Position numbers and translations under genes: made by a program
From: Bacteroidia bacterium
Lineage (GTDB): Bacteria > Bacteroidota > Bacteroidia > J057 > JANWXU01
NCBI GenBank assembly: GCA_025057395.1
Contig: JANWXU010000025.1
Location: 1 to 40,463 of the forward strand
Direction of reading: 5' to 3'
DNA length: 40,463 nucleotides
Shown: positions 13,528 through 31,055 of the stretch, piece by piece
Position numbering within the stretch: position 1 is the stretch's first letter
How the letters are laid out: every line of letters begins with the position of its first letter
Notes under the pieces: generated by a model
Seen by the model: the letters and a program-made list of their open reading frames with translations, nothing else
Database searches by the model: none
What the model was told of the DNA's origin: nothing

Positions 13528-13567
13528 CATTTTGACAAGCCTAGTGTTTTTATTTTTTCCACTCTAA

Positions 13568-14293: not shown

Positions 14294-14342
14294 ATTTCTC
14301 ATTATCTTAAATGTAAGAAAGTCTAAAAAACTTTAATAAGCG

Positions 14343-15794
14343 ATGATAGATACCAATGATTTTTACGTAGATATCCACCTTCACCCTACTCTAAAGCCTT
14401 TTTTAGTAAAAGAACTACATTCACCCTGGCATGCTAATAATCACGTGCCTTTAAGCCAGCGCTTGCGGCGCTCAATGCGCGTCACCCAGTCGGATTTTAG
14501 TACACTTTTAGAAGGAGGTGTACGAGTAATATGGCACTCCTTACATACCTTAGAAAGGTATACCCTAAGCAAATTAATTACCAGTCCGCGCATTATGAGC
14601 CAGTTTTTAAAAATGGATATTGAACGGCTGCGCCAAATTGTTTCTTGTCGCCCTATTCGAATTTTGCAGGAGGAACTTAGCTATTTGAAGGAAAATTTAA
14701 AGTGTCCGGATGGAGAAGCAGAAGCAGTAATTGTAAAAAACTATGATGAATTAATCCAAACGCTCGCTTCTCCTAATAAACTGGCTATTATTTTAACTAT
14801 AGAAGGGGCTCACAATTTAGGATTCGAATACGTAGATAATACCTTTCCTCATGCCGGACAAAAAGTGAATATCACAAATACTATTTTGGAGGGGGCCGAA
14901 GAACTATCCGAGGCCCTTATTCAAGAAAGGGTGCGATTTATGAAGCAAAATCACATTTTTATGCTTACGCTCAATCACTTCGTTTTTAATCAATTGGCTT
15001 CAATGCCCAAGGCTATCGAGCTTACAGGAATTAGTAAACGAATCTTGCATAACCCTATCCGCTCCTTAGATTCCCTAGGAAAGTATCGAGGTCTTACTTT
15101 TTTGGGCTATTCTATGGTCGAACGATGTATGGAAAATAATATTATAATAGACCTCAAACACTGTGACGCAGTTACAAGGCACCAAATCTATGCTATCGCT
15201 GCACGCTACCAAAAGCCAGTAGTAGGCTCTCACATCGCTTGCAGTGGTAGAAAAACCAATTTCCGAGCTCATACGTTGCTTAAAAAAACAGAAGACACCT
15301 TCGAAGACCGCCAAAAAAGTGAAATCTTTAACCCATGGGACCTCAATTTCCACGACGATGATATCGTTGCCATTCATAAGCTTGGAGGACTTTTAGGCTT
15401 AATTCTAGATAGAAGAGTACTAAGCAGCGTAAAAGCCTTTGAACTAGCCAAAAGAACTGGCAACTGGCTCCAGTTACTTTTTAATCAAATTGAACATATC
15501 TATAAGGTACTACTAGCAGCAGGAATTCCACCAGCCCAAGCCTTTGATTCTATTTGCATAGGCAGTGATTACGACGGTTTTATTGAGCCGCTTCCTAACG
15601 TAACCCACTCAGCAGAATTTCGATACAAGGAAGAAAGAGATGGTAAAACGTTACGCCTAGATAACGGTTTAGTGGACTACTTTACTCGTAATTATGCAAT
15701 CTATCAAGATTCAGGTTTAAATCCTGAAACCATCAAGAATAAAATTTTGCGCGATAATGCTATGGAATTTCTCAAAAAGCACTTCTGCTCTTAA
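14343..15794 (+). CDS. Membrane dipeptidase-like metallohydrolase (peptidase M19 family)
   Basis: A 483-residue protein of the amidohydrolase fold, with no signal peptide. Motifs in order match M19 renal-dipeptidase-type enzymes: VDIHLHP (about 9-15) for the first metal pair, TIEGAHN (about 155) at the position of the bridging Glu, DLKHCD (about 270) and GSHIACSG (about 296) for the second-site histidines, and IGSDYDGF (about 406) for the catalytic Asp region. M19 enzymes hydrolyse dipeptides using two zinc ions. Several flanking residues differ from the common DLSH and SHSN patterns, so the substrate may not be a plain dipeptide. It lies between the TPR gene and mrp and may be cotranscribed with both. 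Confidence 0.75.
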   Translation: MIDTNDFYVDIHLHPTLKPFLVKELHSPWHANNHVPLSQRLRRSMRVTQSDFSTLLEGGVRVIWHSLHTLERYTLSKLITSPRIMSQFLKMDIERLRQIVSCRPIRILQEELSYLKENLKCPDGEAEAVIVKNYDELIQTLASPNKLAIILTIEGAHNLGFEYVDNTFPHAGQKVNITNTILEGAEELSEALIQERVRFMKQNHIFMLTLNHFVFNQLASMPKAIELTGISKRILHNPIRSLDSLGKYRGLTFLGYSMVERCMENNIIIDLKHCDAVTRHQIYAIAARYQKPVVGSHIACSGRKTNFRAHTLLKKTEDTFEDRQKSEIFNPWDLNFHDDDIVAIHKLGGLLGLILDRRVLSSVKAFELAKRTGNWLQLLFNQIEHIYKVLLAAGIPPAQAFDSICIGSDYDGFIEPLPNVTHSAEFRYKEERDGKTLRLDNGLVDYFTRNYAIYQDSGLNPETIKNKILRDNAMEFLKKHFCS

Positions 15795-15840
15795 ACTTTT
15801 GCCGCTTCTATGTTGTTTTGAAACATATAAAGCCCAAAGT

Positions 15841-16902
15841 ATGCAAATTACTGAAAAAGAGATCTTACAAGCCCTCAGCCATGTAGAAGAGCCCGACCTG
15901 AAAAGGGATATCGTCAGCCTTAATATGGTAAGAGATATCCAAATTACAGAAGATAAAATTAGCTTTACGGTGGTACTTACTACACCTGCTTGCCCCCTTA
16001 AGGAAATAATACGCAATGCTTGCGAAAATGCCATCCGCCATTTTGTAAATGGCCACTTTGTAATAGAAGTCAATATGACTTCGCAAGTAACAAGCAAAAT
16101 AAATACCTCTTCCTTTCTTAAGGGTGTAAAAAATATCATTGGTATTGCCTCAGGCAAGGGAGGGGTAGGGAAGTCCACTATTGCGGCTAATTTAGCTATT
16201 AGCCTTGCCCAAATGGGTGCAAGAGTGGGTCTCTTAGACGCCGATATCTACGGGCCGAGTATACCTATACTTCTAGGCTTAGAAGAAGAACGACCGCTAG
16301 CCCATAGTATCAATGGGAAAGACTATATTGTACCTATACAAAAATTTGGCTTGCAGGTAATGTCCCTAGGCTTTTTAGTTCCAGCAGGGCAAGCAGTAGT
16401 TTGGCGCGGACCTATGGCCTCTAAAGCCATTATGCAAATGGCAGGCGATACTCAATGGGAAAATGTAGACTACCTAATAATTGATATGCCTCCTGGCACA
16501 GGAGATATACATATCTCGCTTTGCCAACAATTGCCAATGACAGGTGCCATCGTTGTTACTACTCCTCAAACTGTAGCTCTTGCCGACGCAAGAAAAGCAG
16601 CCGCCATGTTTACTATGGATTCAATCAAAGTACCCCTCATTGGAATTGTAGAGAATATGTCATACTTCTGCCCTCCTGAGGAACCTACTAAAAAGTATTA
16701 TATTTTTGGTAAAGATGGAGCTAAGCAATTAGCCGAAGAATTTAATGTACCTCTCTTAGCGCAAATTCCTCTAGTAGAAGAAATTCGAAATGGAAGCGAT
16801 ATGGGTATTCCCATAGCACTAATAGCAGACTCTCCCCAGGCAAAAGCTTTCGAAAATCTAGCGATGCTTACTGCCCAACGTATCTCTATCTTAAATGCTT
16901 AA
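15841..16902 (+). CDS. mrp: Mrp/NBP35-type ATP-binding iron-sulfur carrier
   Basis: A 353-residue cytosolic P-loop ATPase that carries Fe-S clusters to apoproteins. The N-terminal MIP18/DUF59 domain (about 1-95) has EEPDLKRDIVSLNMV and the TTPACPLK loop. The ATPase domain starts with the deviant Walker A SGKGGVGKST (about 104-113), then LLDADIYGPSIP, and DMPPGTGD as Walker B. The usual C-terminal CxxC is not there. The equivalent loop reads MSYFCPPEEPTKKYYIFG with a single Cys, and such cysteine-poor loops occur in other Bacteroidota Mrp proteins (from memory). I chose the ATG at 15841 because the family starts at this point. An upstream ATG at 15757 would overlap the preceding gene. nfu follows after 12 nt. 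Confidence 0.92.
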   Translation: MQITEKEILQALSHVEEPDLKRDIVSLNMVRDIQITEDKISFTVVLTTPACPLKEIIRNACENAIRHFVNGHFVIEVNMTSQVTSKINTSSFLKGVKNIIGIASGKGGVGKSTIAANLAISLAQMGARVGLLDADIYGPSIPILLGLEEERPLAHSINGKDYIVPIQKFGLQVMSLGFLVPAGQAVVWRGPMASKAIMQMAGDTQWENVDYLIIDMPPGTGDIHISLCQQLPMTGAIVVTTPQTVALADARKAAAMFTMDSIKVPLIGIVENMSYFCPPEEPTKKYYIFGKDGAKQLAEEFNVPLLAQIPLVEEIRNGSDMGIPIALIADSPQAKAFENLAMLTAQRISILNA

Positions 16903-16914
16903 AATCTCAAAAAC

Positions 16915-17154
16915 ATGAGCTATCCTACTCTTGAAGAAAGAGTACAAAGCGCAATAGAATCCATACGCGCCTACTTACAAGCAGATGGAGGCGACATCCG
17001 CCTTATAAACATTCAAGAAGACAGCATAGTACAAATAGAATTCCTAGGAGCTTGCCGCAGCTGCAATATGAATGAACTTACTTTAAGAGCAGGCGTAGAG
17101 GCTGCTATCAAAAAAGCAGCCCCTGAAATTAGAAGTGTAGTAATTCTGGAATAA
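16915..17154 (+). CDS. NifU-like (Nfu) iron-sulfur scaffold domain protein
   Basis: A 79-residue protein consisting only of the NifU C-terminal domain. The sequence shows YLQADGGDIRLI (about 20-31) and GACRSCNMNELTL with Cys47 and Cys50, the CxxC pair that binds a cluster between two subunits. In this family the motif is usually AC-x-x-CP-x-S-x-x-TL, so only the residues around it vary. It is 12 nt downstream of mrp, which supports an operon in which Nfu holds and Mrp transfers clusters. The stop lies 14 bp from the convergent trhO stop, and I see no hairpin between them. Confidence 0.9.
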   Translation: MSYPTLEERVQSAIESIRAYLQADGGDIRLINIQEDSIVQIEFLGACRSCNMNELTLRAGVEAAIKKAAPEIRSVVILE

Positions 17155-17168
17155 TAAATGTAATTCAA

Positions 17169-18116
17169 TTAATGCGTCGTCACGTAATTCTTGCTATTGA
17201 CCCCGCGCCAATACATTCCTCTACCATCATATACTCTCCGCTTAGGCGCTTGCATACACTCTTCTGAACAACACCCCTGAAGCCTCTCTTGACAAGAGGG
17301 GCAAAGTAAAAAGTGTTTGTTACAGTCTGCGTTTGCACAGTTTACAAACTTTTCCGTAGGTGCAGCACAAACTCCACATCTACCAATAACGCTAGGATTT
17401 ACAAAATTTACCGGCACTACTACCCGATCATCAAAAACATAGCATTGCCCTTCAAAATGTTTACCCCCTGTTTCTTTACTATATCGAATAATTCCCCCAT
17501 GCAGCTGATAAATATTCCGAAAACCACGACGCAAAAGTAAAGGCGTTAGCTTTTCGCAACGAATACCCCCTGTGCAATAAGTAACTATTTTTTTATCTTT
17601 ATACTTTTCAAATTCGTCTAAATAAGCATGGATATCCCTAAAGTGATGAATATTAAAACCAATCGCGTTTTTAAATTTACCCACATTATACTCGTAATCA
17701 GAACGAGTATCAATAATAACCACATCTTCGGGCTCTTCCTCTAAAATAGCTAACATTTCCTCAGGCTCTATATATGGAGCTGCTGGTGGTATAAAAGGAG
17801 CTCCCAAATTGACAAGCTCATCCTTGCAACGCACATGTAATTTATGAAAGGCATGCTCGTAATGTTCATCCACTTTAAACTCTATTCCCTCAAAATAAGG
17901 ATGATTAAGCATGTAATTCATATAAGCATCCGTGGCTTCCTTAGTACCCGAAACTGTACCGTTAATCCCCTCCTTGGCAATAAGAATTCTACCTTTTAGC
18001 CCTAGCTCCTGACATAGACCAAAATGCTCATCTCGATAGGCAACAGGATCTGGAATTTCTACAAATTTATAATAGAGAAGTACTTGGTATAGATTTTCTT
18101 TAGATAGTGCCTCCAT
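17169..18116 (-). CDS. trhO: tRNA uridine(34) hydroxylase, rhodanese family
   Basis: A 315-residue protein of the TrhO/YceA family, which hydroxylates uridine-34 of certain tRNAs, a step toward 5-methoxyuridine or its carboxymethylated form. The N-terminal acylphosphatase-like domain has ILIAKEGINGTVSG (about 44-57). The rhodanese domain has IIDTRSDYEYNVGKF (about 134-148) and the active loop CTGGIRCEKLTP with Cys181 and Cys187. The C-terminal segment includes FDDRVVVPVN and a cysteine-rich tail (CGVC, CPSC and a CC pair), as in the family. The length is typical. It is convergent with nfu, and the small gene behind it is on the same strand, 98 bp away. Confidence 0.92.
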   Translation of the reverse strand: MEALSKENLYQVLLYYKFVEIPDPVAYRDEHFGLCQELGLKGRILIAKEGINGTVSGTKEATDAYMNYMLNHPYFEGIEFKVDEHYEHAFHKLHVRCKDELVNLGAPFIPPAAPYIEPEEMLAILEEEPEDVVIIDTRSDYEYNVGKFKNAIGFNIHHFRDIHAYLDEFEKYKDKKIVTYCTGGIRCEKLTPLLLRRGFRNIYQLHGGIIRYSKETGGKHFEGQCYVFDDRVVVPVNFVNPSVIGRCGVCAAPTEKFVNCANADCNKHFLLCPSCQERLQGCCSEECMQAPKRRVYDGRGMYWRGVNSKNYVTTH

Positions 18117-18214
18117 TGGGAAAAATAATTTTTTGAACGTCGAATATGAAAACTTTTTTCAATAAGTACAATTAAGGTAAGACAATCTAGCCTGATTGTT
18201 TTCAATTTTCTAAA

Positions 18215-18682
18215 CTAACGTATTGGTAACCCGGCAGGAACGCCTAACCAACTGCGCATTAAGCCCGTACCTATGCCATAAGGTTCAAATAAGCCCCGTA
18301 AAAACAAATAGCCGGGTGTATTATACATTTGATCTACCCCTACCCAAATATTACTGCTTACAGGCTGCATCCGAGTACCTTGTCCTCCAAAAGCCATTGC
18401 AGAAGCCAGATCAAAAGGATAAACATCGTAGGTAGTATACAACAAAGATTTATTATCAGGCAATACTAGATATGGCCAATATAAGCGCACTGGCTCCATA
18501 CGGAATAGATTCAAACGGCGTACTTGCCAAAGCTTGCTCCGTAGTGCTAGTTGCTCGTAGCTTATCCTAAAGGCTTCCGCCGGATCCTCTTCCCCATTCT
18601 GAAAACTTTGTGCAACTATAGCCCCTTGTAAGGCAAAAAGGTGGATAATAAAAATAATAACTGCCCGCAACATAGAATTCAA
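18215..18682 (-). CDS. Small exported protein of unknown function
   Basis: A 155-residue protein I do not recognise. Residues about 1-24 are a signal peptide (AVIIFIIHLFALQGAIVAQ). The mature part is rich in aromatic residues, with VRLYWPYLVLPDNKSLLYTTYD, Gly-rich AFGGQGTRM, and a final stretch that is Gly, Leu and Pro rich (PYGIGTGLMRSWLGVPAGLPIR is its last segment). No cysteine remains after the signal, so it is not a lipoprotein. A Met at position 4 is an alternative start. It is upstream of trhO on the same strand and divergent from the UbiA gene. Nothing links it to either function. Confidence 0.6.
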   Translation of the reverse strand: MNSMLRAVIIFIIHLFALQGAIVAQSFQNGEEDPAEAFRISYEQLALRSKLWQVRRLNLFRMEPVRLYWPYLVLPDNKSLLYTTYDVYPFDLASAMAFGGQGTRMQPVSSNIWVGVDQMYNTPGYLFLRGLFEPYGIGTGLMRSWLGVPAGLPIR

Positions 18683-18707
18683 ATAAATTACTTAAACCAA
18701 CCGCAAT

Positions 18708-18738
18708 AAATAGCCTATGCTATTTTTTATTAAATAGC
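18708..18738. repeat. Three alternating copies of AAATAGC / GCTATTT
   Basis: AAATAGC (18708-18714), GCTATTT (18719-18725) and AAATAGC (18732-18738) lie in the divergent intergenic region between the small exported gene and the UbiA gene. The middle copy can pair with either neighbour, giving 7-bp stems with loops of 4 or 6 nt. It could be an operator or a switching hairpin. Confidence 0.45.
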
Positions 18739-18851
18739 CAAGTAATATAATAATTTTTCAATTCTTAAGTTATCCTTATCTGAAAAATCTTTTATAAAAT
18801 TCCAGTCTATTTTTTGTATTAAATTTACACTAAGGTTTCAATTTAGCTTCT

Positions 18852-19769
18852 GTGGGCACCTTTTCTACCCCTCCCATTACTCAATTTATCGTATATACTT
18901 ATCGGCTCTTATATTCTCTTTTTCAACTCTCTCGCCCTATTAGCCTTTTGCTAGAGGCCTTTTCTTTTAACTGGGCTGCTTATTTTTCCGTGCATCAAAG
19001 TTTTGATTTCCTTAAGCAAAAAAATTATTGGCTGGAACTTTTACTTATACTCCTGATTCTTGCCAGTGGTTACTGGATAAATGACGTAGTAGACCAAAAG
19101 ATAGACCAAATTAATAAGCCTCACAAAATTATAATCGGAAACACTCTATCTCGTAAAAAAGCCCTTACTGCCTACTTCTTGGCAACCAGCTTCATCCTCA
19201 TATGTACTATCTGGCTCTTGCCCTTCAGGTTTTGGATACTTAACTTTTTTGCAGTAGGCGTTCTATTTTTTTATACAAGCCACCTTAAAAAGCACTTAGC
19301 AGTTGCTAATTTTACCGTGGCTATCCTTAGTGGACTTACAATCGTAGCAGGGGCAGTCCTCTTACATTTCAAAATTATTCATCTATGGGGAATTATCTTT
19401 ATTTTTTCGCTAAATTTACTTCGAGAAATTACTAAAGATATAGAAGACGTAGAAGGCGATTTGGAGCACGGTTTACACACCCTCCCTACACTCGTAGGAA
19501 TTCGCACCACCCAAAACTTTCTAATTGGGGGCCACCTTTATTTACTAGCTTTGCAATTTATTTTTCTCATTTTTTACTACTTTCAATATCATATTCTACC
19601 CCTCTTCTTTATTGCTATTTTATTCTTTTTTGTAATTCTCCCTATCTTAAATAATCTTTACCTTCTAATCAAAGCCCAACTGCCCCACGAATACCATATT
19701 CAACGCCAAAATCTACAATGGATTACAGTTACCAATATGGTAAGCTTCCTTTTTTTACCTATAGTTTAG
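18852..19769 (+). CDS. UbiA-family prenyltransferase, possibly geranylgeranylglycerol-phosphate geranylgeranyltransferase type
   Basis: A 305-residue integral membrane enzyme with about eight or nine hydrophobic segments. Both aspartate-rich motifs of the UbiA superfamily are intact: NDVVDQKIDQINKP (about 77-90) and DIEDVEGD (about 196-203), which bind the prenyl diphosphate through magnesium. Bacteroidota proteins with this motif pattern are usually annotated as geranylgeranylglycerol-phosphate geranylgeranyltransferases, but quinone or other lipid acceptors are possible. The start is the GTG at 18852. An in-frame stop lies 21 nt upstream at 18831-18833 and no ATG occurs in the first two thirds of the protein. 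It stands alone between a divergent gene and the dnaJ-like gene. Confidence 0.8.
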   Translation: MGTFSTPPITQFIVYTYRLLYSLFQLSRPISLLLEAFSFNWAAYFSVHQSFDFLKQKNYWLELLLILLILASGYWINDVVDQKIDQINKPHKIIIGNTLSRKKALTAYFLATSFILICTIWLLPFRFWILNFFAVGVLFFYTSHLKKHLAVANFTVAILSGLTIVAGAVLLHFKIIHLWGIIFIFSLNLLREITKDIEDVEGDLEHGLHTLPTLVGIRTTQNFLIGGHLYLLALQFIFLIFYYFQYHILPLFFIAILFFFVILPILNNLYLLIKAQLPHEYHIQRQNLQWITVTNMVSFLFLPIV

Positions 19770-19904
19770 CTCATTTAGATAAGTGCTAAAGTATTGGAAG
19801 AAACTATATACTTTTGTCCTTTTCATAACTTCAAAATAGCTGGTAATTAGTCGAAAAACCATAAGCTTCTACCCCTTTTTAATCTTATCAACAACTCACA
19901 TTTG

Positions 19905-19919
19905 CTGCCAAAATGGCAG
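19905..19919. promoter_or_regulatory. Palindrome CTGCCA-AAA-TGGCAG upstream of the DnaJ gene
   Basis: A perfect inverted repeat with 6-bp arms and a 3-bp spacer ends 13 bp before the sigma-54-like -24 element. The adjoining AGAATATTCT (19918-19927) is a second perfect 10-bp palindrome overlapping its end. Placement fits an operator for a regulator acting at the promoter. Confidence 0.5.
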
Positions 19920-19932
19920 AATATTCTTTTTT

Positions 19933-19948
19933 TGGCAAGAACTTTGTA
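19933..19948 (+). promoter_or_regulatory. Sigma-54-like promoter upstream of the DnaJ gene
   Basis: TGGCAAGAACTTTGTA aligns with the -24/-12 consensus TGGCACGNNNNTTGCA with only two mismatches and exact spacing (GG of -24 and TTG of -12 in place). Transcription would start near 19958-19960, giving a leader of about 85 nt that contains the hairpin at 19964-19991. No TAnnTTTG element lies near the gene. The nearest, TACTTTTG at 19809-19816, is over 220 bp away. Confidence 0.55.
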
Positions 19949-19963
19949 TTTTACAGCGTTAAA

Positions 19964-19991
19964 GCAGGTTGTCTCTATTCTACCAACCTGC
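19964..19991 (+). other. Leader hairpin upstream of the DnaJ gene
   Basis: A perfect 8-bp stem, GCAGGTTG with CAACCTGC, encloses a 12-nt loop and would lie at the very 5' end of the mRNA from the sigma-54-like promoter. A T-run (TTTTTT) starts only about 11 nt after the stem, so it is not a standard terminator. A stabilising or temperature-responsive element is possible. Confidence 0.4.
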
Positions 19992-20042
19992 AGTACAAAT
20001 GTTTTTTATTCATTGTACCTTATCGTATAAATTAAAACTAAA

Positions 20043-20942
20043 GTGGAGTTCAAAGACTACTATAAAATATTAGAAGTTCCGCGCAATGCTAGCCAAGAAG
20101 ATATCAAAAAAGCCTATCGTAAGCTAGCTAGAAAATACCACCCAGACCTCAACCCGAATAATAAAATTGCAGAAGAAAAGTTCAAACAAATATCTGAAGC
20201 CTATGAAGTACTTAGCAACCCGGAAACACGTAAAAAATATGATATGCTTGGCAGTAATTGGAAATATTATCAAGAACAAGCTGCTTCTCAAACACAAAGT
20301 GATGATTTCTTTCAGCGCAGAACCTATTACAGAACTACCGATACTAGAGACCCTTTTTATTCCTTCTTTGGAGATAATTTTAGTTTTTCTGATTTTTTTC
20401 AAACTTTCTTTGGCAGCAGTGCTAACCATGGAAGCAGGCAAGAAACAAGAGATATTCACTCCAGTATCAATATCCGCCTAGAAGAAGCTTACCAAGGATG
20501 CGATAAAAAAATAAGTCTAAATAACAAAGAGTTCCGCCTCAAAATTAAGCCAGGTATTGCCGACGGACAGACTCTTAAAATTAAGGGGTACGGACAAAAT
20601 GGAGGAGACTTATATCTTAAAGTAAATATCTTGCCCCATCCTATCTATGAAAGAAAAGGTAATGATTTATTTCGTACCTTGACTATAGACCTCTATACGG
20701 CCATTTTAGGCGGCGAAGTTACAATCCAAGGAATCGACGGGAAAAATATCAAAGTAAAAATTCCCGCAGGAACTCAGCAAGATACTATCTTACGCCTCAA
20801 GGATAAAGGAATGCCCTTTTATAATTCCCCTATGCATTTTGGTAATCTTTACCTAAAACTAAAAGTTCAAGTTCCTAGTCATCTTACTCCTCAAGAAAAA
20901 AGACTTTTTGAACAACTAGCTTCGCTACAAAAATCCAAATAA
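20043..20942 (+). CDS. DnaJ/CbpA-type J-domain co-chaperone without zinc finger
   Basis: A 299-residue Hsp40. The J domain (about 4-68) has [12 protein letters not shown], the HPD motif at 33-35 that stimulates the DnaK ATPase, and [13 protein letters not shown]. In place of a Gly/Phe-rich linker there is a Phe- and Ser-rich stretch (about 88-130) with repeated [11 protein letters not shown] and DFFQTFFG. The zinc-finger cysteines of DnaJ are absent. The C-terminal substrate-binding domains carry [20 protein letters not shown] and [21 protein letters not shown]. This is the architecture of CbpA-like, type II co-chaperones. The start is the GTG at 20043, which puts the J domain at the N-terminus. 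The upstream sigma-54-like promoter and palindrome suggest stress or developmental control. Confidence 0.88.
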
Positions 20943-21061
20943 ACTTTCCCTCTCCAGAAATAAATTTTGTATTCTACCCCTCCCTGGACCCCTGTACCGC
21001 AAAATCACCTTTTCTCCTAAGCCTAAAATGAGTAAAACTTAAAATCCCTTTGCTACTCAAA

Positions 21062-21077
21062 GTATAAGCCTTTATAC
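21062..21077. repeat. Inverted repeat GTATAA-GCCT-TTATAC
   Basis: Perfect 6-bp arms separated by 4 bp, in the 291-bp gap before the methyltransferase gene and 156 bp from its ATG. The size and symmetry fit a dimeric regulator site, but the function is unknown. Confidence 0.35.
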
Positions 21078-21106
21078 CAAGTCATGCTTAACTAAACTTC
21101 ACCTCC

Positions 21107-21132
21107 TTTATTCAATGCATTTATTCAATGCA
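21107..21132. repeat. Two tandem copies of TTTATTCAATGCA
   Basis: The 13-bp unit is repeated exactly end to end, and each copy with the following T's contributes a palindrome AATGCATT, so two such palindromes lie 13 bp apart. They are about 100 bp upstream of the methyltransferase ATG. Either an iterated binding site or a slippage duplication. Confidence 0.5.
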
Positions 21133-21233
21133 TTATGCTCACCTAATTTCAGGAATGCTCCCACTTTTACCCCCCAAAATACTATACACTTCCAACTTTC
21201 GTCGTATATTACCAGCCTAAATAAATAAACTCT

Positions 21234-23885
21234 ATGACAATTACCTGTTTAGGAAAAACATTTGAAACGGAAGAAGAAAGAAGAGCTTACTTTAGAGAAG
21301 AATTGCGCAAATTACTTCCCGAACTCCGCAAACTCGAAGGATTCCCCTTGGGCTCAGACGAAGACATCCTTGCCCTTTCCGACCCGCCCTACTTCACCCT
21401 TTGCCCTAACCCCTGGCTCAAAGATTTTATTCAAGAATGGGAAAAACAAAAAGAACAAAACCCCCACTATAACCCCCATTTCACCGTAACCCAACCCTAC
21501 GCTACCGATGTTTCCGAAGGAAAAAACGACCCTATCTATAACGCCCACAGTTACCATACTAAAGTACCCCATAAAGCCATTATGCGCTATATTTTGCACT
21601 ATACGCAACCAGGAGATATTATTTTGGATGGCTTTGCTGGAACGGGCATGACGGGGGTTGCCGCCCAATTTTGCGAAAAACCAGATGCCCCAACCCAAGC
21701 CCAAATTGAAAACGAATTTCGAGCTTTGGGCTTGCCGCCGCCACAATGGGGTAAGCGTTATGCCATTTGCTCGGACCTAAGCCCTATTGCTAGCTTCATT
21801 GCCTACAATTTGAATACACCCACTGATGTCGAGCTTTTTGCCAAAGAAGCGCAAGCTATTTTGGAGGAAGTAGAAAAAGAATGCGGCTGGTTATATGAAA
21901 CCCAAGATGAATATGGCAAAGGTCGAATTAACTATGTAGTATGGAGTGATGTTTTTCGTTGTCCTGGGTGTAATGCAGAGATGGTGTTTTGGGACGTAGC
22001 AGTAGACCACGAAAACGGTAAAGTAAAAGATGTTTGGCCCTGCCCTAAATGCAGTTTAAAACTTAGCAAAGATGGGCAAAAGGACAGCGTAAAGGTAGAG
22101 AAGGCAACGCGTAGTTTTTGGGATAGTGCAATAGGGGAAGTGATTACGCAGGTGAAGAGTGTTCCGGTTTTGATTAATTACACTCGTGGGGGCAAGCGCT
22201 ATGAGAAGAAGCCTGATGCTTTTGACTTTGAATTATTGGAGCGGATTGAGGCAGCAGAAATACCGTATTGGTTTCCTACAGATGCTATGATGGGAGTTGG
22301 AGAAAAATGGGGGGATACATGGCGATCTGGCATTCATGAGGGCATTACGCATGTGCATCATTTTTATACTAAGCGGAATTTGTGGGCAATTAGTTGCTTA
22401 TGGAGCAAACTTAAGGGTAAGCAAAAATTTTTATTGACCTCTGCTTTAAATAGAAATCTTACAAAACTGAATCGATACATCTTTTACAAAGGTAAGGGTG
22501 GTATTGGGCGTCCGCTCAGCGGAACACTTTATATGCCATCAGAAAATGTGGAGCAGTCTCTATTTCATCTATTGGGCAAGCAAGAGGCAAAATTCAAAAT
22601 TTTAAATTATAGCCTAGTTTCTGTAAGCTCGCTTTGCAGTAATGATAGAAAACAAAATGAAAAAATTCCTTCCAACAGTATTGACTATATATTCACCGAT
22701 CCTCCTTTTGGCGGGAATATTATGTATTCGGAGCTAAATTTTATTACGGAAAGTTGGCTCAAAGTAAAGACAAACCCTGCTTCAGAGGCAATAATAAATA
22801 AAACCCAGGGAAAAGGGCCAGAGGAGTATTATGAGCTAATGAAAGCTGCTTTTATGGAATATTATCGAGTACTGAAGCCCGGGAAATGGATGACCGTGGA
22901 ATTTAATAATACCAAAGCTTCTATTTGGATGGCTATCCAAAATGCTATACACACAGCCGGATTTGTATTAGCAAACGTAGCGGTTTTAGATAAGAAGCAC
23001 GGAGGTATTAAGGCAATGGCAATCCCGACAGTTAGCAAGCAAGACCTTATTCTAAGCTGCTATAAGCCCCCAGAACCTATTGAAGAAGCGGTACTTCATT
23101 CTTGTGACAAGAAATTTGTTTGGACATTTATTAGAAATTTACTTGAACATTTGCCCTTGTTGCTTCAAGAGCAAGGCGAACTTATTGGTGTTGCCGAACG
23201 TTGCCCTAAAGTTTTATACGATAGGCTAGTGATGTATTGCCTTAGCCACCGAAGGCGCGTGCCTTTAGGAGCTCGAGATTTTCAAGAAGGACTAGCTCAG
23301 CATTTTGTTTGTCGGCAAGGGTTATATTATACTCCAGAGCAAGCTCAGGAATATGATTTCTTGCTAGCCCAGAATAAAAAAATTAAACAAGCCCCTATGT
23401 TTATTAGTAACGAAGAGGAGGGAATAGCGTGGTTAGCATTAAAGCTGAATGATAAGCCACAAAAGTTACAAGATTTACAAACAGAGTGGAAACAAATTTT
23501 ATTTCCTAATAAAAATGAAGTAATTCGAGAACTTAAAGAAATTTTAGTAGATAACTTTATTCAGGAAGATGGAGGATATTGGCGGCTTCCTACAGTAGAA
23601 GAAAGTATGTTGCGGAAGAAACAAAAAGAGGAAAAGCTAGCCCGTGAATTTGAAAGACTACATAGAGAAATTCAACAGGGAAAAAAGATAGAAGAGGTGC
23701 GAAGGGAAGTATTACTTTTTGGAATAGAACGTTTTTTTGAAAAGGAGCAGTATACAAGTATCATAGAGGTTTGCAAAGGCCTGCCCAAAGGTTACGTAGA
23801 AGAAGATGAACAGCTATTTATGTATTACGAAATTGCTAACGAAGGAGTTAAAACAGAAGAGATACAAAATTCTACTATACAATGA
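21234..23885 (+). CDS. Large solitary DNA methyltransferase, probably N6-adenine type
   Basis: An 883-residue enzyme predicted to transfer methyl groups from S-adenosylmethionine to DNA. An N-terminal LSDPPYFTLCPNPW (about 48-61) is followed by ATDVSEGKND, the SAM-binding motif I DGFAGTGMTGVAA (about 132-144), a zinc-ribbon-like pair CPGC/CPKC (about 243-272), and the catalytic motif TDPPFGGNIMYSELNF near 488. D-PP-[FY] is typical of adenine enzymes and S-PP of N4-cytosine enzymes. The C-terminal part has VPLGARDFQEGLAQ and a charged helical tail. Proteins of this layout occur in some genomes beside large ATPase or helicase genes in defence-type clusters (from memory), but here the neighbours are a chaperone and an adhesin. 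No restriction gene is visible. The first 550 bp are strongly C-biased and the middle G-biased. Confidence 0.82.
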   Translation: MTITCLGKTFETEEERRAYFREELRKLLPELRKLEGFPLGSDEDILALSDPPYFTLCPNPWLKDFIQEWEKQKEQNPHYNPHFTVTQPYATDVSEGKNDPIYNAHSYHTKVPHKAIMRYILHYTQPGDIILDGFAGTGMTGVAAQFCEKPDAPTQAQIENEFRALGLPPPQWGKRYAICSDLSPIASFIAYNLNTPTDVELFAKEAQAILEEVEKECGWLYETQDEYGKGRINYVVWSDVFRCPGCNAEMVFWDVAVDHENGKVKDVWPCPKCSLKLSKDGQKDSVKVEKATRSFWDSAIGEVITQVKSVPVLINYTRGGKRYEKKPDAFDFELLERIEAAEIPYWFPTDAMMGVGEKWGDTWRSGIHEGITHVHHFYTKRNLWAISCLWSKLKGKQKFLLTSALNRNLTKLNRYIFYKGKGGIGRPLSGTLYMPSENVEQSLFHLLGKQEAKFKILNYSLVSVSSLCSNDRKQNEKIPSNSIDYIFTDPPFGGNIMYSELNFITESWLKVKTNPASEAIINKTQGKGPEEYYELMKAAFMEYYRVLKPGKWMTVEFNNTKASIWMAIQNAIHTAGFVLANVAVLDKKHGGIKAMAIPTVSKQDLILSCYKPPEPIEEAVLHSCDKKFVWTFIRNLLEHLPLLLQEQGELIGVAERCPKVLYDRLVMYCLSHRRRVPLGARDFQEGLAQHFVCRQGLYYTPEQAQEYDFLLAQNKKIKQAPMFISNEEEGIAWLALKLNDKPQKLQDLQTEWKQILFPNKNEVIRELKEILVDNFIQEDGGYWRLPTVEESMLRKKQKEEKLAREFERLHREIQQGKKIEEVRREVLLFGIERFFEKEQYTSIIEVCKGLPKGYVEEDEQLFMYYEIANEGVKTEEIQNSTIQ

Positions 23886-23937
23886 TAAAAAAATAGTGCC
23901 CATTTTTTAATTATTTTATTATTAATTAATTGTTGTG

Positions 23938-23945
23938 TATATTTC
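23938..23945 (+). promoter_or_regulatory. Imperfect -7 promoter element (TATATTTC)
   Basis: Seven of eight positions match TAnnTTTG, and the distance of 34 nt to the ATG at 23980 equals that of the better boxes in this window. It directly precedes the 18-bp palindrome. Confidence 0.3.
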
Positions 23946-23963
23946 TTATTTTTCGAAAAATAA
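23946..23963. promoter_or_regulatory. Perfect 18-bp palindrome TTATTTTTCGAAAAATAA
   Basis: Two 9-bp arms meet with no spacer, 16 bp before the ATG at 23980. The core TTTTTCGAAAA recurs at 39362-39372 upstream of the FN3 adhesin gene. In this AT-rich DNA short A/T palindromes arise by chance, but 18 bp with a central CG is long. Confidence 0.4.
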
Positions 23964-23979
23964 AAAATTACCTTAGTAG

Positions 23980-26900
23980 ATGATTAAAGCAGACATTAAA
24001 AAGTTTTATAAAATGAAGGGTATACATGGAATAAGTTTGTACTTGCTTTATTTTTTAGGCGCGTTAGTAAGTATCAAAGCACAAGATAACATAATTGACC
24101 CCAAAGCTAAGACTACTCTTTACAAAAAACCTTTAACCCTTGATTTACGCCCTTTTGTAACAGGGCCGGAGCAAGATTGTGAAAGTGCATTGAGTTTGTG
24201 TAGTTTAGCCTACCGCAATCCGTATTCTTATACCGGATGGGGACGCAGGCAAGAAGTAGTAAATACTTGCTTACTGATGGGTGAAAGAAATTCGGTGTGG
24301 TTTGTCTTCACAGTGCAGCAAGGGGGCACATTCGGTTTTGAAATTCGTCCTGAAAACTTGCTACCCTTTATTGGTGGGGATGACTATGATTTTGCTCTAT
24401 ACGATATCACTAATGCTACTTGCAGTGATATTCCGAGGCTCACGCCTGTTCGTTGCAATTATTCTGCAGATGGGCAAATTACCGGCTTACGCTTCAATAG
24501 TGTTAGCGATATAATACCTATTAGCTATACTGCTACTGACCCCCCTATGATGCCAGGCTTAAATGTACGTGCGGGTCAAAGGTTTGCTTTAATTGTAGAT
24601 AATTATTCGGGTTCTACTTCGGGTTTTCGTCTTACGGCAACGGGTACAGCAGTTGTAGGAAATGTTACTCCGCCCTCATTCACCGGTGCTTTAGATATTA
24701 ATTGCCGCGACCAACTTACTAAGCTTGTAACCGTTAATTTTTCGCATCCAGTACGTTGCTCCTCAGTACAGCCTGAAGATTTTGTAATCTTAGACCCTGA
24801 CGGCAATACAGCGCGTATCACTGATGTATTTTGTATCAGTGGTACAGATTTCGCTTCTTTCATTCGTGTAGCTTTTACTACCCCTACACGTAAAAATGGA
24901 CGCTACCGTTTAGTGCATAGGGGTGATGTACGAGATAATTGTAACAATATTATGCGCAATGGGGAAGAAATAGCATTTAATGTTACTCACGTACCTACTA
25001 TTAGCGCAAATTTTAGTCCATTAGAGTGTAACTCTACGACCCTCTTTCTAACAGCAAGCGCCGAAATTGAAGCGACTTCGCTAAGTTACCTTTGGCAAGG
25101 ACCTAATGGCTTTAGTAGTACTGAAGCTAATCCTAGTATTACCCCCCCTGTTGGGGGTACTTATTCTGTAGTAGCTATTGCAGATGGGTGTACAAGCGCT
25201 ACTGCCGCCGTAAATGTAACTTTTGCGCCTGCCCCTACAGCTGATTTTAATGTTTCTCAAAATAGTGTTTGCGCCAACCAAGAAATAGCTATTTTCTACA
25301 CAGGTACAGCAAGCCCCCAAGCCGACTTTCGCTGGAATTGCAATGGCTGCAATCCTAGTTTACTTTCCGGTTCGGGCCCTTTTTCAGTTTCTTGGGGTTT
25401 ACCGGGCATTAAAACTATTTCCTTAGTTGTAATAGAAAATGGTTGCACTTCAGCAATTGCTAACAAAACAATAAATGTAGCAAGTGCACCGGGAGCTACT
25501 TTCCAAATTCGGCAAGCTGGTTGTGTTAATGAGCAAGTAGAACTTAGCATTATAGAAAGTAACAATGCCATCACTTTTCAATGGAATTGCATGGGCTGTT
25601 CACCACAACCACAAGGTAGGGGGCCTCACTTAGTAAGCTGGAATACCCCAGGTAAAAAAACCATTACACTTACTACAGAAGGAGATGAACGTTGCCCTTT
25701 TGGCGTTAGTACTGAAGAAATTCATATTGTAGCTATTCCAGAGCCCCCCTTGGTAAGAAGCCAAAATTTATGCGCAGGACAAACCATAGCTATTGCTCCT
25801 ACTTTTTCAGGAGCAGAACCTGATAATGTTTTTGTATATACTCAAAGCCAAGGCGGCGCTCCTATTGAATTACTTACCAGTCCATTTTTATTTTCTACCA
25901 CCATCACTACAACCACTACTTATTACTTTGAAAGCGTTAATACCTTAGCAGGTTGCAAAAGTACAGTTCGTACACCGGGTATTTTTACAGTATTTCCTAT
26001 TCCTGAAGTACCACGTATAGAAAATGTTCGGCTCTGTAATGCGGGAGTAGTAGCCTTTACTTTGCAAAGCTTACCGCAAAATGCTAATGAAGTTTGGCTT
26101 TTTGATGCTCCTTCAGGCGGCGAAGTCTTAGATATTGCTACGGCTCAGGGCTCACTTTTATATAACCGTTTTTTAAGTCAGAGTAAACGTTTTTATGTTC
26201 AAAGCTATGCTCATGCTAATGGTTGCGTGAGCCCGCGCATACCTATAGAAGCAACTATACTAACTTCTCCGGGTCCGCCTAATGCATTTATTCCTAAAAG
26301 ATGTGGAGTAGGGGAAATCACTATGGAACTGGTGATGGGTACACCCGCGGGTGAAAAATTCCGTATTTACGATGCCCCTCAGGGAGGGCGGCTTATAAAA
26401 GAACAACCTGCCTTTGAAAATATATTTAAAACTACTATTGCTCAAACTACTACTTTTTATGTAGAAAGTTACCAAGAACTCCAGGGTTGCAATACTAGCA
26501 GCCGTACTGCAGTAGTAGCCGAAATTTTAGATAAACCTAACTTACCCGCCTTTCAAGAAATTAAAATTTGTGAAAATACAGCCGCTACTATTCCTTTTCA
26601 AGTTGTGGGTCCTGGTAGTTACCAGGTGGAACTTTTTGCTGATACTAGTAGCTTACCCATAAGTTCGGGTAGAAGTCCTATTAACTTAGTAACCCCTACT
26701 TTAGCTAGTTCCAGAACCTTTTTTGCTAAAACTTATAATCTAGAAAATGGCTGCACTAGTAATTGGCAGGAGATACAAGTAAAAGTTTCACCTAAGCCTA
26801 TCTTACCTACCCCTACGCCCTTGGGCAGATGTAATCCTGGCTTTGTACACTTTACAGTAGCTACGGGTCAGGCGCTTGTTTCTACCATTCGTTTGTATTC

Positions 26901-28641
26901 TGCTATAGGAACTACTACGCCGCTTGCGGAAGCCAATGTTTCTCCTTTTGCTTTTCGCACGCCCTTACTTACTACCCACACCACTTATTATATACAAGCA
27001 GTATACGAAGGTTGCGTAGGGGAAATATTAGCACTGCCTATTACGGTAGTACCGGTATTACAGCTAGATGTCCAAACTACACCGGCCCTTTTAGGAAATG
27101 ATGGCAAAATTGTAGTTTCCGTAAGTGGCGGTATGCCGCCTTATACCTTCGTTATTGGCTCCATGGTCAATACTACTGGTATATTTAGCAACTTAGCACC
27201 TGGCACCTATACTTTAAGAGTAAATGATTCGGGTAATTGTATTGCTACTCGTAGTATTGTAGTAGATGCCCACTGCCCTCTACCTAATATTCCAGCAATA
27301 AAAGAAAACGAAAAAGGACAATTGATTTTACATTGGGCCCCTTCTTCTAATGCTATAGTTTACCAAGTTACCCTACAAGAAGAAGGGCAAGCTCCTGGAC
27401 CTACCCTTCTTGTAAACGATACTTTCCTAATTTTACGCAGACTTACTCCTGAAACTAAGTACCGAGTAGAAATTAAAGCCGTATGCCGTAATGGAAGGAT
27501 ATCAGCCCCACAATTTGGCGAATTTACTACTCCTCTTTGTAACGCCGTTAATTTTGTATATATGACAGATGTTACAGAAACCACTGCTTTAGTAAATTGG
27601 TCCGAAATGGAGGGTGCTGATAGTTATGAATTTAGTTGGCGTAAGCAAGGAAATTTAGAATGGGAGCCCTTAGAAAATTTAAGACAAAAAAGTCGCTTTT
27701 TGAACCGCCTGCAAAGAAATACTACTTATGAAGTTCAAATTCGAACTCTTTGTAATGAAGGTTCTGTACAAGCAGATATTGTATATAATAGTTTTACTAC
27801 CCTAAAGTGCAATACAATTTCTAATATTTGGCATACACATCTGAATCCTACCACTACCCTAATAGAATGGCAACAAGGAGGAAGTGCTACCCAATACGAG
27901 ATTCGCTATGCTATAAGTGGAACTTCTAATTGGCGACGTGTAGTTACTACGCAGCCACGTATACAGCTTTCTGGACTTTTACCCCAAACTTCTTATGAAG
28001 TACAAATTCTACCTCTCTGCGGAATCGATGCTGCCCAAGAAACTAAATATTCCTTTACTACCCATACTTCTAACCCTGATTGTAGTACACCACTAGGCGT
28101 ACAAACGGCAATAATTGGTCCTCAAGCCTTACAAGTGCTCTGGCAAAATGTACCTAATGCCACCCATTATAGCTTGCGATATAACGCCGAAGGACAACCT
28201 CCTATTATTGTTCCAGCAACAGCTCCTTTTCTACTCGGTAATCTAACGCCGGGTAGAATTTACAATATAAGTGTTAGAGCCTATTGTACAAACAGCATAA
28301 CTTCGGCGTGGAGCTTTCCTGTAGCAGTATTCTTACCTTCTAATGCCCGTTCGATAGAAGCAGCCAACAAAGAAAGCTTATTGATATACCCTAATCCTGC
28401 CCAAAATACCATTCACTTATCGATAAAATTACCCTCTGAAGAAGCCCAAAAAAATCCAGAATTATGGATAAAGATTATAGACGTAAATGGAAAGTCAGTT
28501 TTATATTCCTCTTTAGCTAGTGAAAATACCGAAAACTATACACTAGACATTTCAAGACTTACTCAAGGAATGTACACTATTGCAGTGGGAACAGCTCAGC
28601 AAATTTTATTAACACAAAAGTTACTTATACAACAAAAGTAA
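23980..28641 (+). CDS. Giant T9SS-secreted multidomain surface protein with FN3 repeats
   Basis: A 1553-residue secreted protein. The export signal covers about 12-35 (ISLYLLYFLGALVSIKAQ). ATG 24013 would trim eleven residues and is an alternative start. The N-terminal domain (about 60-227) starts DCESALSLCSLAY and contains NSVWFVFTVQQGG and DDYDFALYD, a jelly-roll-like module common in T9SS cargo. A Big-like domain follows (about 230-337, VNFSHPVRCSSV), then Ig/PKD-like modules with paired NCNGC and NCMGC, five Ig-like repeats of about 88 residues (about 590-1025, several with LFDAPSGG or IYDAPQGG), one SprB-type unit (VVSVSGGMPPYTF), four FN3 domains (about 1100-1465) and a T9SS sorting domain (LLIYPNPAQN onward). 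No enzyme site is visible. A structural or adhesive role is inferred. A strong terminator follows. Confidence 0.88.
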   Translation: MIKADIKKFYKMKGIHGISLYLLYFLGALVSIKAQDNIIDPKAKTTLYKKPLTLDLRPFVTGPEQDCESALSLCSLAYRNPYSYTGWGRRQEVVNTCLLMGERNSVWFVFTVQQGGTFGFEIRPENLLPFIGGDDYDFALYDITNATCSDIPRLTPVRCNYSADGQITGLRFNSVSDIIPISYTATDPPMMPGLNVRAGQRFALIVDNYSGSTSGFRLTATGTAVVGNVTPPSFTGALDINCRDQLTKLVTVNFSHPVRCSSVQPEDFVILDPDGNTARITDVFCISGTDFASFIRVAFTTPTRKNGRYRLVHRGDVRDNCNNIMRNGEEIAFNVTHVPTISANFSPLECNSTTLFLTASAEIEATSLSYLWQGPNGFSSTEANPSITPPVGGTYSVVAIADGCTSATAAVNVTFAPAPTADFNVSQNSVCANQEIAIFYTGTASPQADFRWNCNGCNPSLLSGSGPFSVSWGLPGIKTISLVVIENGCTSAIANKTINVASAPGATFQIRQAGCVNEQVELSIIESNNAITFQWNCMGCSPQPQGRGPHLVSWNTPGKKTITLTTEGDERCPFGVSTEEIHIVAIPEPPLVRSQNLCAGQTIAIAPTFSGAEPDNVFVYTQSQGGAPIELLTSPFLFSTTITTTTTYYFESVNTLAGCKSTVRTPGIFTVFPIPEVPRIENVRLCNAGVVAFTLQSLPQNANEVWLFDAPSGGEVLDIATAQGSLLYNRFLSQSKRFYVQSYAHANGCVSPRIPIEATILTSPGPPNAFIPKRCGVGEITMELVMGTPAGEKFRIYDAPQGGRLIKEQPAFENIFKTTIAQTTTFYVESYQELQGCNTSSRTAVVAEILDKPNLPAFQEIKICENTAATIPFQVVGPGSYQVELFADTSSLPISSGRSPINLVTPTLASSRTFFAKTYNLENGCTSNWQEIQVKVSPKPILPTPTPLGRCNPGFVHFTVATGQALVSTIRLYSAIGTTTPLAEANVSPFAFRTPLLTTHTTYYIQAVYEGCVGEILALPITVVPVLQLDVQTTPALLGNDGKIVVSVSGGMPPYTFVIGSMVNTTGIFSNLAPGTYTLRVNDSGNCIATRSIVVDAHCPLPNIPAIKENEKGQLILHWAPSSNAIVYQVTLQEEGQAPGPTLLVNDTFLILRRLTPETKYRVEIKAVCRNGRISAPQFGEFTTPLCNAVNFVYMTDVTETTALVNWSEMEGADSYEFSWRKQGNLEWEPLENLRQKSRFLNRLQRNTTYEVQIRTLCNEGSVQADIVYNSFTTLKCNTISNIWHTHLNPTTTLIEWQQGGSATQYEIRYAISGTSNWRRVVTTQPRIQLSGLLPQTSYEVQILPLCGIDAAQETKYSFTTHTSNPDCSTPLGVQTAIIGPQALQVLWQNVPNATHYSLRYNAEGQPPIIVPATAPFLLGNLTPGRIYNISVRAYCTNSITSAWSFPVAVFLPSNARSIEAANKESLLIYPNPAQNTIHLSIKLPSEEAQKNPELWIKIIDVNGKSVLYSSLASENTENYTLDISRLTQGMYTIAVGTAQQILLTQKLLIQQK

Positions 28642-28664
28642 CCCCTAGTACTAATCCTTAGTTA

Positions 28665-28695
28665 AAAAAATCCGCCTCTAAAAGGCGGATTTTTT
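28665..28695. terminator. Strong hairpin terminator with flanking A and T runs
   Basis: TCCGCCT pairs with AGGCGGA around a 5-nt loop, extended by six A-T pairs. The stem ends in a T run, 24 bp after the stop of the T9SS cargo gene. Confidence 0.92.
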
Positions 28696-28712
28696 GTTTA
28701 TATGAAAATTTT

Positions 28713-28720
28713 TATATTTG
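28713..28720 (+). promoter_or_regulatory. Bacteroidota -7 promoter element (TATATTTG)
   Basis: Exact TAnnTTTG match, with 35 nt between it and the ATG at 28756. A TTTG at 28693-28696 is a possible -33 box at 16 bp, slightly short. An upstream in-frame ATG at 28702 would lie in front of this box, which argues against that start. Confidence 0.55.
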
Positions 28721-28733
28721 CAATTTTGTTGCA
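28719..28733. repeat. Inverted repeat TGCAA-TTTTG-TTGCA overlapping the promoter
   Basis: Perfect 5-bp arms around a 5-bp spacer overlap the end of the -7 element and the expected start of transcription. A further TTGCAA lies at 28746-28751. The position fits a repressor site for the lipoprotein gene. Confidence 0.35.
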
Positions 28734-28755
28734 TTTGAAACAAAGTTGCAAGTAT

Positions 28756-29592
28756 ATGAAAAAACTAGAATTGATTATTGTTTCTCTGAGCTTACTTTTG
28801 GCTATCTGGAGTTGCAAGAAAGACGAAGATAAGCCTAAGCCGGTAGTAGACAACACGCGACCAATAATTAGTAATGTAACTACAGGAAAAGCAGATAATA
28901 CTTTTCAAGTAGGACAAACAATTCAACTAAGAGCTCGCCTTTCTGATGATACAGAACTAGGGCAGTACAAAGTAGAAATACACGAAAATTTCGATGGGCA
29001 CAGCCATGGCAAAACAAGTAGTACCACGCCTTTTGAATATAAAAAAATAGTTAATATTTCGGGCAAGGCACATGATTTGGTGCAGGATATTAAAATACCT
29101 GAGAATGCAGCTAGCGGCCCTTATCACTTATTAATTTATTGCCTAGATAAACAAGGAAATGAGGCAGAGTTTGTGTTAATTGACTTGAATATCACTAATA
29201 GTTCGCAGCCGGTAATCAATATTACTCGGATAAATGGCAAAGACGCAAGCAAGGAAGTACATTTACACGAAATAGGTAGCGATACAGTTTCTTTGCAGCC
29301 CGAAGGTGATATTACAGATAGTGACGGATTAGCAAAAGTAAAAATTAAAGTAGTGGAAGCTAAGCATAGTCACGGCAAGAATAGTGAAGACCACGTATGG
29401 GAATGGGAGCAGGAAAATAATTTAAGCAATCGTTTAGATATAACGGCTCTTTTTAGAAACAACCCTATTCGCTTTCGTTTAACGAAAGATGGCAAGCCAG
29501 CTAACGAAAATCATTATGATCTTATGTTTATAGCTAAAGATAAACTCGGGAATTATTCTATGCAAGTAGTAGAAATACATGCAGAAAAATGA
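28756..29592 (+). CDS. DUF4625-type lipoprotein with HSHGK motifs
   Basis: A 278-residue lipoprotein. The signal peptide ends in a lipobox, LLLAIWSC, with the lipidated Cys at 20. The residues after it, KKDED, resemble the acidic surface-export signal described for Bacteroidota lipoproteins, so it probably faces outward. Two beta-sandwich domains follow (about 30-145 and 150-278), of the DUF4625 type. Each holds a histidine cluster: HENFDGHSHGK (about 80) in the first, and KHSHGKNSEDH (about 215) plus HLHE in the second. The function of DUF4625 is not known to me. Metal binding is suggested by the histidines but unproven. The start at 28756 is chosen from the lipobox distance and the promoter position. 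It has its own promoter and terminator. Confidence 0.78.
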   Translation: MKKLELIIVSLSLLLAIWSCKKDEDKPKPVVDNTRPIISNVTTGKADNTFQVGQTIQLRARLSDDTELGQYKVEIHENFDGHSHGKTSSTTPFEYKKIVNISGKAHDLVQDIKIPENAASGPYHLLIYCLDKQGNEAEFVLIDLNITNSSQPVINITRINGKDASKEVHLHEIGSDTVSLQPEGDITDSDGLAKVKIKVVEAKHSHGKNSEDHVWEWEQENNLSNRLDITALFRNNPIRFRLTKDGKPANENHYDLMFIAKDKLGNYSMQVVEIHAEK

Positions 29593-29630
29593 ATAAAAAA
29601 TGAAAATAGAAAGGTCTTTTAGAAGAATTC

Positions 29631-29668
29631 AAAATAAAGAGCTGGGGAAACTTCCGGCTCTTTATTTT
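29631..29668. terminator. Hairpin terminator after the DUF4625 gene
   Basis: AAAATAAAGAGC pairs with GCTCTTTATTTT. The stem extends inward by a G-U and two G-C pairs around an 8-nt loop and ends in a run of T. It lies 38 bp after the stop codon. Confidence 0.88.
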
Positions 29669-29800
29669 TTTAGTAAATTTCCTAGGCAAGCTAGAGCAAA
29701 AAATAATCAACAAAGCATTAGACAAAAAGTAAATTGTTTTGGCTTAAAAATTGAAATGTATTATTTTTAATGCCTTGTAGAACGAATCATTATGTTTTTT

Positions 29801-30124: not shown

Positions 30125-30137
30125 TTCATTTGTAAAC

Positions 30138-31016: not shown

Positions 31017-31055
31017 ATATCATTAGGTGCCATCAGCCCAATGGGATAGAAAGAA

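Follow-up and report, generated by a model that had tools for sequence, protein, structure and literature searches.

Results

Sequence and predicted structure of copy A

The window, by which we mean the whole analysed stretch of 40,463 nucleotides from a Bacteroidia bacterium, contains a gene, here called copy A, that begins with ATG and encodes 883 residues with no internal stop codon (Table 1). The protein matches the PADLOC model for PglXI over the whole length of the family, residues 3-780 aligning with positions 19-793 of the 919 in the profile, and its tblastn relatives are 40-50% identical over their full length. Pfam detected N6_N4_Mtase only, in two stretches (71.5 bits), and an NCBIfam search gave zero families above the cut-off. 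The closest sequence in the PDB was CcrM (6pbd), with E = 2.6e-5 over an aligned length of 41 residues. Assignment to the DUF1156/BR-type methyltransferases was ruled out, that model scoring 24.1 bits (E = 2.2e-6) versus 1028.7 bits for PglXI. At the level of sequence, copy A is an intact DNA methyltransferase and specificity subunit (PglXI/BrxXI) of type 3 BREX, and adenine-N6 methylation is predicted for it from its family.

A preliminary description of the gene had listed two D-PP-[FY] segments, a SAM motif I, a CPGC/CPKC pair and a long C-terminal region. All of these are present, but the first DPPY is non-catalytic and sits in a family-conserved N-terminal element, GFP-G-DEDI--LSDPPYYTACPNP. 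We read the order of motifs as X, I, II, a recognition insert with the zinc ribbon, and IV (DPPF), where HTKVP (residues 108-112) is the segment that we take to be motif X. The four cysteines of CPGC (residues 243-246) and CPKC (residues 270-273), namely C243, C246, C270 and C273, and the DPPF motif each reach at least 97% conservation across 94 homologues and are therefore not chance matches.

The AlphaFold2 model of copy A, built from a 60-sequence alignment (mean pLDDT 86.2, pTM 0.76), places the second DPPF and the zinc ribbon, as the preliminary description had proposed that a structure prediction might. Strands 176-181 (core strand 2) and 483-488 (just before DPPF) bracket nearly 300 inserted residues that include the ribbon; the family insert at this place, from core strand 2 to core strand 3, is about 250 residues long. 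The family's four-cysteine motif is thus found within the insert of copy A, and zinc binding itself is predicted. The C-terminal region of the model is mostly helical. As BrxXI is outlined in PMC12839542, the family's Rossmann core is interrupted by a large insert after strand 2 and before strand 3, and the family also has a four-cysteine zinc motif and a triad of HTH elements in the C-terminal region; copy A has the same core, insert and zinc motif, together with its C-terminal helical region. In Foldseek comparisons the model matched generic methyltransferase folds both in the PDB (best E = 2.1e-4) and among viral models (best E = 4.2e-7).

Table 1. Positions in the window of copy A and of the features within it.
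Feature	Position	Strand	Remarks
Copy A of pglXI/brxXI, 883 aa	21234..23885	+	PADLOC PDLC02541, 1028.7 bits
N-terminal DPPY, residues 50-53	21381..21392	+	Conserved in the family, non-catalytic
Motif X-like HTKVP, residues 108-112	21555..21569	+	
SAM-binding motif I DGFAGTGMTG, residues 132-141	21627..21656	+	Model strand 129-132 just before
Recognition insert between core strands 2 and 3, about residues 195-482	21816..22679	+	AlphaFold2 model; architecture as in PMC12839542
Tract common with copy B, residues 198-387	21825..22394	+	Codon identity scan; stops at the start of the variable segment
Zinc ribbon CPGC...CPKC, residues 243-273	21960..22052	+	Four conserved Cys
Variable segment within the insert, residues 385-478	22386..22667	+	Exchanged with respect to copy B
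Catalytic motif IV DPPF, residues 489-492	22698..22709	+	
C-terminal helical region, residues 613-883	23070..23882	+	Predicted model
Short tract common with copy C, residues 836-867	23739..23834	+	Codon identity scan

Surroundings of copy A in the window

The neighbours of copy A are a DnaJ-family gene (20043-20942) and a gene (23980-28641) whose product is an Ig/FN3 surface protein bearing a Por secretion tail, which bears out the chaperone and adhesin flanks first described. On the one side lie the DnaJ and UbiA genes, and on the other side T9SS-type surface proteins. Models of PglXI, BrxC, BrxHII, BrxA and PglZ run against the 40-kb window at E = 1e-4 found copy A and nothing else, and the BrxF model had no match at E = 1. 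Among the six genes of a type 3 BREX locus, brxF, brxC, pglXI, brxHII, pglZ and brxA (PMC10799925), the window locus holds pglXI alone, and the gene is indeed a methyltransferase without a partner there. PADLOC analysis of six other proteins of the window gave only a weak AbiEii match (E = 0.0054), inside a rhodanese/UPF0176 gene.

A scan for promoters yielded 14 promoter-like sites against 8.0 expected, with no single decisive site. Placement of the gene by means of a tRNA or terminal repeats was rejected, as the window contains 0 tRNA genes and no inverted repeat of at least 25 nt around copy A.

BREX genes elsewhere in the genome

The genome (G000; 4.08 Mb, 244 contigs, 96.09% complete) contains PglXI at three places, so that copy A stands alone within the window but is one of three copies in the genome. 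Copy B, on contig C191, is 68% identical to copy A. Copy C opens contig C164, where the contig end cuts it; it covers the protein from about residue 455 onward, and comparisons with it cover its C-terminal half, the N-terminal half falling outside the contig. Downstream of copy C we named, by eye, a SpoU-like rRNA/tRNA methyltransferase gene and then a gene for an NADH dehydrogenase subunit. The three copies are monophyletic in the tree with a support of 1.0 and, on this phylogenetic evidence, are lineage-specific paralogues scattered in the genome.

Contig C191 holds brxC, brxHII and brxA beside a pglXI. BrxHII (BrxHI/BrxHII model, 838.7 bits) and BrxA (50.6 bits) are encoded on one strand and face BrxC (736.7 bits) and copy B (PglXI, 1049.2 bits) on the opposite strand. 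This BrxC is the single copy found in the genome; it has its Walker A motif and keeps 67/74 invariant residues. The same protein (L007:3758-7981, minus strand) carries insertions at 586-605 and 609-737, about 150 residues that are missing in >80% of 60 relatives.

A BrxHII query found full-length homologues on contigs C44 (51%) and C196 (45%) in addition to C191, together with a more remote homologue (29%) on C61. The C44 and C196 genes (L179:8762-11560 and L180:5187-8039, both on the minus strand) encode solitary full-length helicases that both keep 145/147 invariant residues; in the surrounding sequence fetched there was no PglXI, BrxC, BrxA, PglZ or BrxF match. All three BrxHII copies keep 143-145 of the 147 invariant residues, and they are scattered in the tree rather than forming one group. 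Contig C61 carries a SNF2-type helicase gene, a coiled-coil gene and then an Eco57I-like methyltransferase gene (L181:646-7890), which we judged by eye to be a distinct locus, either DISARM-like or of restriction type.

Searches of the genome with PF08665 and the type 3 PglZ profile matched only a PorX-type response regulator-PglZ protein on contig C16; in control searches the PglZ profile matched in 6/6 other BREX-3 genomes with E = 5.8e-47 or better. BrxF had no match at E = 1, while the same model matched in 4/4 control genomes. It is possible, at 96.09% completeness, that pglZ and brxF were lost in an assembly gap. A genome of the same order (G020), which has a contig with PglXI-BrxHII (C216, L010), likewise gave only a weak match to PglZ, in a PorX-sized frame of 528 aa (E = 1.6e-12).

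Constraint on copy A

Conservation was assessed in an alignment of sequences longer than 780 aa and scoring above 1000 bits, from which L048 and L060 were dropped as duplicates. At the columns with at least 97% conservation among the 94 homologues, copy A keeps 87/94 residues, copy B also 87/94, and copy C 45 of the 50 that it covers. The dN/dS ratio between copies A and B over residues 1-384 is 0.09. Judged from these alignments, the data show that copy A is under purifying selection. Of 171 columns at least 90% conserved, A and B each deviate at 19, and the top three of the 94 members deviate at 15, 20 and 24; since A and B deviate as much as only the most divergent members do, the A/B lineage has drifted as a whole.

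Occurrence of solitary PglXI genes

The relatives from named genomes were the best 80 of 291, a selection in which diverged solitary copies may be missed. Where at least 5 kb was available on both sides (51 of these best 80 of 291), BrxC was found in 51/51 cases, PglZ and BrxA in 50/51 each, and BrxHII in 41/51. Proteins of this layout thus do accompany a large ATPase or helicase gene, as the preliminary description had stated, the layout being that of PglXI of type 3 BREX. Whole-genome scans were run for 50 of the 80 loci; every extra full-length PglXI that they revealed was either a tandem copy or part of an additional complete locus (G472, G495). Within the scope of these searches, a solitary PglXI is unusual. 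One genome (G475) has a partial PglXI relative, 33% identical, on a 7-kb contig without BREX parts. In G338, a genome from the phylum sample given below, one PglXI adjoins BrxC and a second, solitary PglXI ends before the DPPF half; by eye, the latter (L041:11320-13641, plus strand) lies near genes resembling AIPR and RecQ-type defence genes. In a sample of the phylum, 15/395 genomes, including that of the window, had a PglXI match, at most two candidates being scored per genome, which makes copy numbers lower bounds.

Thirteen loci from viral contigs were also analysed; six have a strong full-length PglXI match, with BrxC in 5/6 and absent from L166. The L166 gene (7923-10553, plus strand) encodes an 876-aa PglXI-like methyltransferase without BREX partners, beside a gene that by eye is HsdM/HsdS-like (positions 13132-31228 of the 31228 of the viral contig were read), and perhaps serves protective self-modification by a phage. 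The C-terminal part of L168 is near-identical to the L166 protein. In the phage collection there was no PglXI match at E = 1e-20. Fourteen plasmid records matched, and 4/4 of those opened are annotated BREX-3 loci with brxF and pglZ.

Two further features concern type 3 loci. A 1421-aa BrxC (L116:5071-9336, plus strand) also matches the BrxF model (65.7 bits) and is possibly a BrxF-BrxC fusion. Accessory genes lie within loci at L049:8075-9862 and L061:12585-14273; one matches pAgo-type models and one Orf5/HEC-06/SspE models.

Mosaic structure and recombination among the copies

Identity between copies A and B varies strongly along the protein, being 89% over residues 1-230, 84% over 231-300, 86% over 301-384, 34% over 385-478, 76% over 479-612 and 51% over 613-868. 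In the variable segment (385-478) the two share 31/90 residues, and among 96 other aligned PglXI sequences the closest to this segment of A is not B but L062 (43/86, 50%). The nucleotide block 21233-22394 is 83.2% identical to copy B by blastn. Between A and B, dS starts at 1.43 in the first block and 1.29 in the second, falls to 0.22 and 0.57 in the next two, and is very high or saturated beyond. A recent segmental duplication was rejected as the source of copy A, the blastn similarity to copy B beginning one base before the ATG and ending within the gene with no common flank; an assembly chimera was rejected as the source of the mosaic, the 83.2% similarity within the tract being well below identity.

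Recombination was scanned for at degenerate codons encoding the same residue, and each tract was tested against shuffles. Between A and B, 123/150 codons are identical over residues 198-387 (0/2000 shuffles; 0/1000 in a repeat), and between B and C 94/103 over residues 486-600 (0/2000; 0/1000). Between A and C, 22/23 codons are identical over residues 836-867, including an identical run of 62 nt (0/2000; 1/5000 in the repeat). Control pairs with the G020 protein gave 1758/2000 shuffles for A and 176/2000 for B. Since 3/80 between-genome pairs also reach 0/200, the test has some false positives or detects real exchanges among relatives. The two long tracts, A-B and B-C, lie far outside these nulls, and the A-C tract is short. 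The end of the A-B tract and the start of the B-C tract are both within about ten residues of the variable segment. Synonymous-site patterns point to recombination within each of the three pairs of copies, with two tracts flanking the variable segment.

Tandem PglXI pairs within one locus occur in 6/80 of the loci fetched (the best 80 of 291), and five pairs were compared, L084 being excluded by the length and score filter. In these five, residues 385-478 are 19-31% identical, the motif IV core 54-71% and the C-terminal region 60-97%; the low identity marks residues 385-478 as the part that changes upon PglXI duplication. In the shuffle test only the L093 pair reached 0/1000 (115/116 codons identical over residues 758-840), the others giving 22, 178, 432 and 482. 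The L093 pair (9941-15525, plus strand) has C-terminal regions that are 97% identical and variable segments that are 23% identical.

Discussion

Copy A is best explained as a PglXI of alternative specificity, kept by selection and recombining with its paralogues, that would be used with the one BrxC of the genome; we give this reading a probability of roughly 0.45, its last step being inferred. The single BrxC would be the natural partner for all three PglXI proteins, and each copy, having a different recognition segment, would have a motif of its own. Copy A would then assemble with the shared BrxC from the C191 core and methylate another motif than the in-locus copy B does. The scattered copies would act as alternative specificity subunits, and their recognition segments may turn over by gene conversion.

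The expectation of a partner comes from type 1 BREX, in which, according to the published accounts, BrxX alone does not methylate and the BrxBCXZ complex is needed (PMC11842806), PglX activity also needs PglZ and BrxB (PMC13326643), and PglX/BrxX is the recognition and specificity subunit for both marking and defence (PMC11842806, PMC13326643). If these requirements carry over by analogy to type 3, one would expect BrxC to be necessary for the activity of a solitary PglXI, since type 1 BrxX does not methylate alone. The counterpart of BrxB in type 3 is BrxF. The main difficulty of a shared core is therefore that neither type 3 PglZ nor BrxF was found in this genome. Either the two were lost in an assembly gap, or the machinery has changed to one free of PglZ, or the copies act alone.

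The last of these is a possible reading that we hold more tentatively. Copy A would mark its own motif as an orphan methyltransferase without a BREX partner, protecting against other restriction or affecting gene expression. It is full-length, conserved and placed among housekeeping genes, and a canonical BREX complex cannot form if PglZ and BrxF are missing. Stand-alone modification is plausible for the solitary full-length gene on the viral contig. If the C-terminal region contacts the core, its 51% identity between A and B, compared with 60-97% in tandem pairs, is a sign that A may not use that core. Against such autonomy stand the behaviour of type 1 PglX/BrxX as described (PMC11842806), the intact BrxC and BrxHII of this genome, and the 50 BREX-3 genomes scanned whole, in 0 of which a second full-length copy stands alone. 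The self-contained enzyme considered in the preliminary description is likewise weakened by a helicase partner elsewhere in the genome, the BrxHII-BrxA-BrxC-PglXI core on C191, with its conserved co-occurrence.

A wider form of the alternative-specificity reading, which taken whole we consider rather unlikely, is a delocalised, mix-and-match BREX. PglXI and BrxHII, three of each, would be spread among housekeeping genes, the PglXI differing in their recognition segments; all would share one BrxC/BrxA core without PglZ-BrxF, and the specificities would be renewed by gene conversion between chromosomal copies.

It is improbable that the genes are leftovers of dismantled type 3 loci that lost PglZ and BrxF, with PglXI and BrxHII persisting either with no common function or with borrowed functions. 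For one BrxC and one BrxA-containing core, the genome has three genes each for PglXI and BrxHII, the BrxHII copies are ungrouped in the tree as expected if they came from different loci, and remnants do occur, as in the truncated PglXI of G338. However, the invariant residues kept by BrxHII, by BrxC with its Walker A and by copy A, together with the low dN/dS, are a degree of conservation that decay would not leave. The defence-island remnant envisaged earlier finds no support in the sense of a decaying gene, copy A having a full-length frame, as many invariant residues as copy B and a low dN/dS; as a dismantled system it retains the point that PglZ and BrxF were not found. Lastly, it is very improbable that A and C are silent cassettes, unused as enzymes, that store recognition segments recombining into copy B: the tracts do flank the variable segment, but A has its own start codon, a full-length frame and intact catalytic residues that a pure donor need not keep.

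Several known systems resemble parts of this arrangement. Type 3 BREX has PglXI/BrxXI of the same build but differs from this genome, which has a solitary copy, three copies with mosaic exchange, and no detectable BrxF or type 3 PglZ. Tandem PglXI pairs also comprise two copies with a strongly diverged recognition insert, but they stand side by side in complete loci, whereas the copies here are on different contigs. The DUF499/DUF1156 BREX-related (BR/Hma) systems, as presented in PMC12839542, have a related methyltransferase with the same kind of insert; copy A, in contrast, matches DUF1156 weakly, and the ATPase of this genome is BrxC/DUF6079. Exchange of recognition domains by recombination, with a change of specificity by domain movement, is described for the methyltransferases and HsdS subunits of Helicobacter pylori (PMC3077401, PMC3983042), but there it involves different enzyme families and partner systems and no BREX core.

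In the literature searched, no title or abstract concerned solitary or dispersed PglXI, and no genome was described with scattered recombining PglXI, scattered BrxHII, a single BrxC and no detectable PglZ or BrxF. Copy A itself belongs to a known family; the combination of scattered recombining PglXI and scattered BrxHII with a single BrxC is the part that we did not find described. One bacterium may in this way keep several interchangeable specificities. The genome makes two questions testable: can a single BREX core serve several methyltransferases in trans, and can a BREX-derived complex free of PglZ still modify or restrict DNA? For the family at large, counts of BREX that are based on intact loci miss such scattered parts.
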